Below, piece after piece: positions 7,001 through 10,000 of a stretch of DNA of 64,000 nt. The notes beneath the pieces were generated by a model, which was not told where the DNA came from, did not search any database, and saw nothing but the letters and a program-made list of their open reading frames with translations. Source of the DNA: Strigops habroptila (taxonomy: Eukaryota > Chordata > Aves > Psittaciformes > Psittacidae); assembly GCF_004027225.2 (NCBI RefSeq), contig NC_044278.2, positions 55,173,743-55,237,742 of the forward strand, in the 5' to 3' direction. A program made the translations under genes and the position numbers. Each line of letters opens with the position of its first letter. Position 1 is the first letter of the stretch.

Positions 7001-10000
7001 AGGGAGAGTCTTTTTGTCCCAGGGACGTTCATGAAATAGGGAAGTATTATTTTCATACCTGCTCAGATCTGGGAGGAGACATTTGCTTCATCATTCAGCA
7101 TGCCACAGGGTGTGGCTGATCGTGTTTCTGACAAGTATCTGAAATCCAATTTAGTCGTATGAAGCTGTTTGTATAAAGTCCAGCTGAATTCTGGAGTTCT
7201 GCTGGAATTCTACTGCTTCTTTTCATTTCAGCCAGGATTGTCTCTTTAGTTTGGTTAATAGTATGCTTTGGTTTGATTGTATAATCTGCACTTTGTGGTG
7301 TACAAGAACAAAATGGCTTGATGTGCTTGCTGAGGTTCCCAGAGGTGAATTCTTGACAAGTGACTTTTGCCTCTGGTGAACTAGTCTAAGAGATCAGCTT
7401 TCTTGTGACAGAGGGACAATTATTTCCTGGATGTGGCATTCTTGAAGTTGTTGGCAAAATCATTTGCAGTTGCTCTGAGTTACCCTGAGCTCCCGAATGA
7501 TGTTGCAAAGTTTCTGTGCTTGTGGAAGAGGGCTTAAAAGAAATAAAATGTTCTCAGCAGTGCACTTGGGTGTCTATCGGTCTGAAGTAGTGTGAACTGT
7601 GTTCAGTGTTTTGCAGGCCATAAGAAAGACAGTCTGTGACTGGGAGGCGGGTCATGAGCCGTTCAACGACCCAGCTCTAAGGGGAGAGAAGGACCCCAAA
7701 AGTGGTTTTGACATCAAAGTTCCAAGGCGTGCAGTGGGACCTTCCAGCACTCAGGTATTTTCCTGTCTGATGGTTGTGATATCTGTCAACAATTGTTGCA
7801 TTAAATGTTTTCTCTCTGGCCTGAACTGCTTAAAAAATTGAATTATTATTATTTTTAATGCTAAAAATCTACTCTGATTAGGTTTGTATTTACAAAATAA
7901 TGTATACTTAACCAAAATCCTGTGTCTGGGTTGCTGTGATTCTCTGATGCATAATTTTTCCAAGTGTTCAACCTCTTTAATTTGATTTCCTGGGAAGAAG
8001 AATTTTCTCGTTGAGCTCATAATGGTTTTTTTAAATAATGGTTTTGAACTATTTGAATTAATTCTTGACTGATTCCCATCTCTGGTATGGCTGGTGGATT
8101 TTTTTGTTAAATCCCATTATTCAGTAGATGTCTATGTAGTTTTAAAATATGTTTAAAGTATAAATATTGCCTGTAAAATATGGGAGAGTATTTGACTTCT
8201 GACAAGATCCCTTTTACTGTTCAGTAATGAATGATAAAACTGCTCCCTAAAATCGATTTAATCTGCTGCTGCCACTAAAACGAGGTATTTTATATGTGTT
8301 TTCTGTGGTAGTTGTTGAAATCCCATACCTAGATGCCCATCCTTGTTACCTCCATATAATTCTCTTTTATTTTCTTTGTGGATTTGTTTGGAGAATGTAT
8401 GGTCTGGTATTCATAACTCATCTGGGAAAATAAGGTACTGAGTACTTTGGGTGAAAAACTGAAGGCAGCTGTGGTTTGTAAAGACAATCTTCTAAAACCT
8501 ATAAATCCATGGGGAAGAGAGCATTTATGGATAATAATCCTCGGTAATAAAAAGTTGCTTAAATTTTGGTAAGATGTGTTTAATGAAGATTTTTTTTTTT
8601 TGGGAATTGGAATGAAAGAGTTTAATTTCCAATTCTCTGGGGAAAAAAAATTAAATATCACTACCAGTGTGCTTCTCCTGTGCTTGGTATGTTTAAAGGC
8701 TCTGTTCACTGGCTGCAACAGGCTGCTTAGAGTACATGGTTCTATCTGCTTTTTCTGCTCTTGGACTGGCACACTTGTCTGTCTCAGCTGACAGGAGGAA
8801 GGAGGATGAAGTCGACTGATTTTTAGATAGGTTTTTCTCAGTTTCATGCAGTTCTAAAATGGCTGTGTATGAATTGGTAATACTTGGAAATCTTTGCAAA
8901 ATCATTTGAGAAGCTAATGGCTCTCTGAGCATCCTTTGAAATGAATGGAGACTTTTCCCTTCGCTTGAAGGAGCACTGCATTGCAGTGACTATTCTGAAT
9001 GAAAAAACCTTTCTATATGTCCTCCTCTGCATGCTTGCTACACTGCTTTTCATTTTTAACAAACTAACACATTTCCTCTGTTTCTGTTTCCCCTTCCTTA
9101 TTTACCCATGTGTTTTTATTAACGGATTCTCTCTCCCCTGCCTGCCCCTGTCTGTTGGTTTTTAGCTCTACATGGTTCGCACTATGACAGAGTCCTTAAA
9201 CTCTGCTGAGCTGTTGAAGCAGCTCAAGTCTCTGGGATTGGAAAAGCTATTGCATGTGACACACAAGTTTCTGAGGCAGTCCTACATCTATCCGCCTCTT
9301 TTAAACTTTGGTGGTAAGACATTACTTATTACTTTTACTTTTCGTGGTGATGTGAACTGTTCCACTGCAAATGGTCTGCTGCTAAGTGTCAGTGGAGGTC
9401 CCCTTGCCATGGCTAGGCATTTGTGCTGGTGCGTAGGCTAGCGTGGCATCTGTTCCTCTTGCCTGAAGGCTTTTACCCACACAGTGCCAGTTTTCAATTT
9501 GAAGTGGAGCAGTCGCTTACTGATAGTAATTCTCAGTGTTGCTCAACTAATGTACCATGTGTATTTTCCTTTTTCCTCCCCCCTTTCCACCATAATTGTT
9601 TCCTTTAATGATACAGCTTTACATGGTGAGAACTATGTTAGAGTCCCTCATTGCTGACAAAAGTGGTTCCAAGAAAACCTTGAGAAGTAGCCTTGAGGGG
9701 CCCACCATATTGGACATAGAAAAATTCCATCGCGAGTCTTTCTTCTACACTCATTTGATAAATTTCAGTGGTAAGATACGTAGATGATCGGTGTCCAGCT
9801 TAGCATGTCCTAACACCTCTAACACGACCTGGAAAATGTTTCCGATTGCCTAAGTCAACTTACCTTTGGTTTATTTATCAAAAGCCTTGGTCTGTCCGAA
9901 CTTTTTCTGAGACCTGATATTCAGTATTGTGGTGGGGTTTTTGTTTTGACTGTTACACATATGTTTATAATGCGTCAAATTTCATATTGTTACCTCCCTT

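Follow-up and report, generated by a model that had tools for sequence, protein, structure and literature searches.

The window, by which we mean the whole stretch of 64,000 nucleotides from Strigops habroptila, carries on its plus strand 24 coding exons of CYFIP1, counting each of two neighbouring exons, 8a and 8b. These exons span position 940 to the stop codon at 54864-54866; the 5' part of the gene lies outside the window. An earlier note on this DNA had read 8a and 8b as tandem copies of one exon that behave as a mutually exclusive pair, such that only one or the other, and never both or neither, gives a protein. The features that bear on this reading, all of them on the plus strand, are as follows.

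7607-7754, + strand: exon 7 of the window, common to both forms, ending ...SSTQ in phase 0 (splice sites and protein match)
8987-9163, + strand: AG exclusion zone before 8a, 177 nt free of AG (longest AG-free run)
9063-9068, + strand: ACTAAC, candidate distant branch point or QKI-type motif of 8a, its A at 9067, 99 nt upstream of the exon
9166-9313, + strand: exon 8a, the alternative copy, 49 codons plus G (counterparts in 79 vertebrate proteins)
9546-9551, + strand: ACTAAT, candidate branch point or QKI-type motif of 8b, its A at 9550, 67 nt upstream of the exon
9617-9770, + strand: exon 8b, the canonical copy, 51 codons plus G (peptide identical to human CYFIP1 559-609)
9655-9657, + strand: TGA reached when 8a and 8b are both spliced in (translation)
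10997-11153, + strand: exon 9, the next common exon after 8b (splice sites and protein match)
11051-11053, + strand: TAG reached when 8a and 8b are both skipped (translation)

The exon structure claimed for the pair is correct in every particular: besides the coordinates, 8a is 148 nt and 8b 154 nt long, each length being of the form 3n+1, and both exons are entered in phase 0, end with one trailing G and have AG/GTAAGA splice sites. The frame logic proposed for the pair likewise holds when the four possible combinations are translated. That is, only 8a alone or 8b alone keeps the frame open to the stop at 54864-54866; inclusion of both leads to the TGA at 9655-9657, and omission of both to the TAG at 11051-11053. 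The part of the CYFIP1 protein encoded in the window has 986 residues with 8a and 988 with 8b. Reading through the intron from 8a into 8b is also closed in S. habroptila, where the intron contains a stop and the distance from the start of 8a to the start of 8b, 451 nt, is not a multiple of three.

The motifs LYMVRTM, ESL, F-x-R-x-S-x-x-Y and L-x-NF, which had been said to be common to the two peptides, are present in both. A global BLOSUM62 alignment of 8a with 8b scores 71, against a mean of -5.8 (sd 8.5) for shuffled sequences, and none of 20,000 shuffles scores as high; when LYMVRTM is left out, the score is 36 against a shuffle mean of -5.2, again with none of 20,000 shuffles reaching it. 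Over the first 11 codons of the two exons ten residues match, and because four of these ten are specified by a different codon, the likeness appears to be one of protein and to be old. A repeat search over 7755-10996 found no repeat family joining 8a and 8b at the DNA level. On Pfam family PF05994 the two peptides align to one and the same region (215-265 for 8a and 215-266 for 8b), with 8a scoring below the family cut-off. The human CYFIP1 of PDB entry 3p8c has exactly the 8b peptide as its residues 559-609 (E 2.5e-27), in agreement with the range of about 559-609 that had been given for the swapped residues, and 8a matches the same residues weakly (E 0.16). When the window was searched by tblastn with a CYFIP1 protein and with exons 6, 7, 8a, 8b and 9, no further convincing tandem copy emerged. 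Judging from these comparisons, 8a and 8b are diverged tandem copies whose likeness is beyond chance.

When 8a is searched against its own genome (1.149 Gb in 89 contigs), there is a single match at E 0.001, namely exon 8a itself. Another contig carries an exon 80% identical to 8b, with matches to exons 6, 7 and 9 around it; we take this second CYFIP locus to be CYFIP2. Searches by tblastn with three 8a peptides found no 8a-like copy in the introns, of about 316 and 547 nt, on either side of its 8b-like exon. Since the second locus lacks an 8a copy, the 8a/8b pair is a feature of CYFIP1 in this genome. The split between CYFIP1 and CYFIP2 dates from the early vertebrate genome duplications, so the exon duplication either came afterwards or disappeared again from CYFIP2.

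Exon 8a is not peculiar to this bird. Three protein searches were made, each with an 8a segment: that of the window's joined protein gave 15 proteins, that of a skate protein 38 and that of a manatee protein 66, or 79 different public proteins between them. They come from birds, Alligator, Crocodylus, Varanus, the skate Amblyraja radiata, the chimaera Callorhinchus milii and placental mammals, among the last squirrels, vole, bats, horse, bear, whales, deer, armadillo, manatee, lemurs and apes. Most are named CYFIP1; the rest are called 'Cytoplasmic FMR1-interacting protein' or 'hypothetical protein', apart from one without a name, and no protein among the 79 is named CYFIP2. Teleosts and amphibians are missing from the 79, which is not evidence of loss, given that the set is biased. 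The 49 residues of 8a are complete and free of indels in 74 of the proteins, the other five being models that start within the exon. Counting the window's own, 23 different 8a peptides occur, in which 15 of the 49 positions are invariant, and the others agree with the window at between 31 and 48 of 49 residues. The proteins were picked by likeness to 8a, which favours high identity, and include some models flagged LOW QUALITY. Disabling mutations in 8a of related birds had been named as a finding that would count against the pair; what we find is an intact 8a in predicted proteins across jawed vertebrates, which speaks for it, although protein databases cannot reveal disabled copies.

The same proteins indicate how 8a is joined to its neighbours. 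In 19 of the 79, all of them gene models, 8a is joined directly to ETLQQ and replaces 8b; for example, 'isoform X2' records with 8a in place of 8b exist for the duck Anas acuta, for A. radiata and for Equus caballus. Another 59, mostly mammalian, contain 8a, in-frame extra sequence and then 8b, mostly via read-through of the intron, and one is odd; these proportions are to be read in the light of clustering at 90% identity, which hides 8a-only isoforms under clusters named for 8b and favours the longer forms. By the 59, then, strict exclusivity does not extend to all annotations. Together with the reading frame, the 19 models support a mutually exclusive pair as the best reading of the two exons, as the earlier note had proposed.

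Two further observations concern particular mammals. In catarrhines, squirrels, pilot whale and armadillo the intron between 8a and 8b is open and in frame, and the full-length models have 1377-1452 residues. The 32 catarrhine proteins have one common 8a peptide, with changes (...RQSCTYLPLLTFG) that no other mammal of the set shows. This peptide is more drifted: 35 of its 49 residues are identical to the window, as against 38 for the most frequent peptide of the remaining mammals. Perhaps constraint on 8a is relaxed in catarrhines.

The read-through models offer a local control for constraint, in that they contain 8a, the intron and 8b within one protein. Pairs drawn from eight mammals of different groups are on average 0.91 identical in 8a, 0.42 in the intron part and 1.00 in 8b; with all 16 mammals included the averages become 0.91, 0.54 and 1.00. 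Four of the eight and five of the 16 are LOW QUALITY models, the proteins were chosen by likeness to 8a, and the pattern used to select 8b prescribes the first 17 residues of that exon. The slice taken as 8a in this comparison starts one residue early (it takes the preceding Q and omits the final G), and the pattern dropped three of the 20 input proteins, which were truncated bird models. We read these identities as suggesting that 8a is constrained as protein, though less than 8b.

The 177-nt run before 8a is the longest of 3519 AG-free runs in the 50,766 nt of intron that CYFIP1 has within the window. Over the 24 CYFIP1 acceptors the AG-free zone has a median of 31 nt, and that of 8b is 78 nt; thus 8a exceeds, and 8b falls short of, a length of 100 nt. 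Among human exons, AG zones of at least 100 nt are uncommon (0.57%, on a modified measure of the authors), and they accompany distant branch points and more frequent alternative splicing (PMC1431707). As a separate matter, the second longest zone of the 24 acceptors, 94 nt (52129-52222), precedes the CYFIP1 exon at 52225-52319.

The branch points that we assign to 8a and 8b are consensus matches and so candidates. Within the AG-free zone of 8b, counting only positions upstream of -9, the ACTAAT motif contains the sole match to the branch-point consensus (A at -67). In 19 of 20 read-through models (one crocodilian, three birds and 15 mammals) the residues T-N-V/A-P-C occur 48-69 nt before 8b, as ACTAAY-GTN-CCN would encode; the shrew model is the one of the 20 examined that lacks them. 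Across the window ACTAAY is found 68 times, against 71 expected, which is no enrichment over chance. QKI recognises ACUAAY, and it competes with SF1 at branch points and can displace it; ACUAAY is enriched within 40 nt before QKI-repressed exons (PMC3983035), a range beyond which the ACTAAT of 8b, 71 nt upstream, lies. In mouse embryonic cortex an exon is favoured for inclusion when QKI sites lie downstream of it, and mouse Cyfip1 stands in Table 2 of Qki-regulated splicing in that tissue, the relevant passages leaving the exon unnamed (PMC6429586). A Cyfip1 skipped-exon change, also with the exon unnamed, is listed for ageing male mouse hippocampus (PMC10839115). At the second CYFIP locus the AG-free zone before the 8b-like exon is 32 nt, and there is no ACTAAY within the 150 nt upstream of that exon. 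The second locus offers a natural one-exon control for the splicing switch. Pairing within the RNA was considered as the chooser between 8a and 8b and set aside: the sole inverted pair in 7755-10996, at 8590-8612 and 8627-8649, is largely oligo-T and oligo-A and lies some 500 nt before 8a.

Exon 8a need not, of course, encode a useful peptide. It could be a poison exon, whose inclusion beside 8b shifts the frame, sends the message to decay and so tunes the dosage of CYFIP1, the peptide itself going unused. A length of 148 nt, or 3n+1, suits such a role, as does the TGA at 9655-9657 that is reached when 8a is followed by 8b. However, a poison exon would need neither an open frame of 49 residues nor homology to 8b, whereas 8a is kept at the level of residues (15 of 49 invariant over the 23 peptides, and no indels in 74 of the 79 proteins) and is used in frame in place of 8b by 19 of the 79 models; we therefore regard this role as improbable. 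Still less probable is that 8a is a functionless relic, rarely transcribed and decaying. In favour of a relic, our literature searches turned up no description of 8a, and 8a does evolve faster than 8b (mean identity of 0.91 as against 1.00 in the mammals compared). The strong counter-argument is that between 31 and 48 of its 49 residues are as in the window across jawed vertebrates, and in S. habroptila the exon also retains intact splice sites and the 177-nt AG-free tract, so that we give the relic almost no credence.

The mammalian models raise a different alternative, namely that the working product is a long exon in which 8a, the intron and 8b are read through, with some 125-141 residues added. 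Most of the public proteins with 8a (59 of 79) do hold 8a, in-frame extra sequence and 8b, and the catarrhine, squirrel, pilot whale and armadillo models among them are without a LOW QUALITY flag. Yet the read-through part has 42% identity, with indels, as against 91% for 8a in the eight mammals; the path is closed in S. habroptila by the stop in the intron and by the out-of-frame length; and the models themselves can be explained by intron retention together with clustering bias. We consider such a product very improbable as the explanation of 8a, though less so than a relic.

We thus favour, with considerable confidence, the reading in which 8a and 8b stem from an ancient tandem duplication within CYFIP1, dating from at least the common ancestor of cartilaginous fish and land vertebrates, and have since been retained as coding exons that exclude each other. 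Very probably, to go by the conservation described above, 8a makes a second form of the CYFIP1 protein. A mature mRNA would carry either 8a or 8b, yielding two CYFIP1 proteins that differ only at residues 559-609; in the duck model the 8a form has 1251 residues, and the 8b form is two residues longer. At the level of protein, exclusivity would be enforced by the reading frame: double inclusion and double skipping would each run into an early stop and probably end in nonsense-mediated decay.

How one exon is chosen over the other is less certain. Because the donor of 8a lies 237 nt from the likely branch point of 8b, and not near it as steric exclusion calls for, steric blocking is unlikely. 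We propose tentatively, and think it rather less likely than otherwise, that the choice is made at the branch points. Exon 8a would then use a distant branch point behind its 177-nt AG-free tract, SF1 and QKI could compete for the ACTAAY motifs of both exons, and QKI bound to the 8b branch point would shift splicing to 8a.

Mutually exclusive tandem exon pairs are well known as a kind, and the closest parallel that we found is that of exons 4a and 4b of OGDH, likewise an ancient vertebrate tandem exon duplication with mutually exclusive use, an extended AG-free zone, distant branch points and proteins that differ in one segment (PMC7969005). In OGDH, exclusivity is enforced by distant branch points placed close to the donor of the intron between the two exons (PMC7969005). 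In CYFIP1, by contrast, 237 nt separate the donor of 8a from the likely branch point of 8b, the long AG-free zone precedes the upstream exon, and it is the frame that forbids double inclusion. The human tandem duplicated exon substitutions (236 events, PMC9741552) and mutually exclusive exons (PMC5740500) resemble 8a and 8b in being homologous neighbours of which one is used, of similar length and phase, and mostly ancient. CYFIP is absent from the main text of both papers, whose supplementary lists may include it. Exon 12 of NUMB has QKI sites near its 3' splice site, to which the candidate QKI-type motifs of 8a and 8b may be compared, and is repressed through competition between QKI and SF1 (PMC3983035). 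It is a cassette exon and not one of a duplicated pair, and an action of QKI on the CYFIP1 exons would be an extension from that case. We found no paper describing the 8a/8b pair, judging by titles, the opening of abstracts and some passages, with supplementary and subscription texts outside the scope of the search. As far as could be seen, then, the pair is undescribed, and predicted isoforms with 8a are already in public records.

As for the protein, the swap replaces CYFIP1 residues 559-609 with a net loss of two residues. The earlier note had held that it removes a serine-rich loop; that stretch is indeed affected, but it is not simply removed, since a different sequence stands in its place and just two residues are lost overall. 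We also considered phosphorylation of the replaced serine stretch, found no paper on Ser583/S582 of CYFIP1/CYFIP2, and dropped the idea. An AlphaFold2 model of the 8a form, built with 13 aligned proteins, has a mean pLDDT of 33.7, and no claim about the fold rests on it.

In the WAVE complex, which is autoinhibited, CYFIP1 (Sra1) is the subunit that binds Rac1; its A site comprises residues 91-108 and 176-215, the D site residues 961-978, and the tyrosine lock residues 86-89 and F686 (PMC9481577). Segment 559-609 lies outside the A site, the D site and the tyrosine-lock residues as that paper gives them (PMC9481577). That the swap alters regulation of the WAVE complex is a guess. More speculatively still than the choice at the branch points, and with the odds in our estimation well against it, there may have been two kinds of WAVE complex since the origin of jawed vertebrates, with a contest between QKI and SF1 at ACTAAY swapping residues 559-609 between cell types. 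The copy of the PDB that we searched matched a single CYFIP1 sequence, common to five entries, and it is the 8b form. If there are two kinds of complex, the only solved CYFIP1 matched there would be of the 8b kind, and the other kind would be unseen.

The 8a/8b pair is a directly testable splicing switch. With a second coding version of an internal segment, retained since before cartilaginous and bony fishes diverged, studies of the vertebrate WAVE complex may have overlooked a part of it; reagents against the common parts of CYFIP1 would not distinguish the 8a and 8b forms. The gene encodes a core component of the switch for actin assembly in the cell and, in human, lies within an interval linked to neurodevelopmental disorders.

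Elsewhere in the window, the CYFIP1 intron at 45655-51059 contains long open frames on the plus strand between 46492 and 49140, of 452 codons (46492-47847), 82 codons (48382-48627) and 170 codons (48631-49140), which resemble a CR1-type LINE element.
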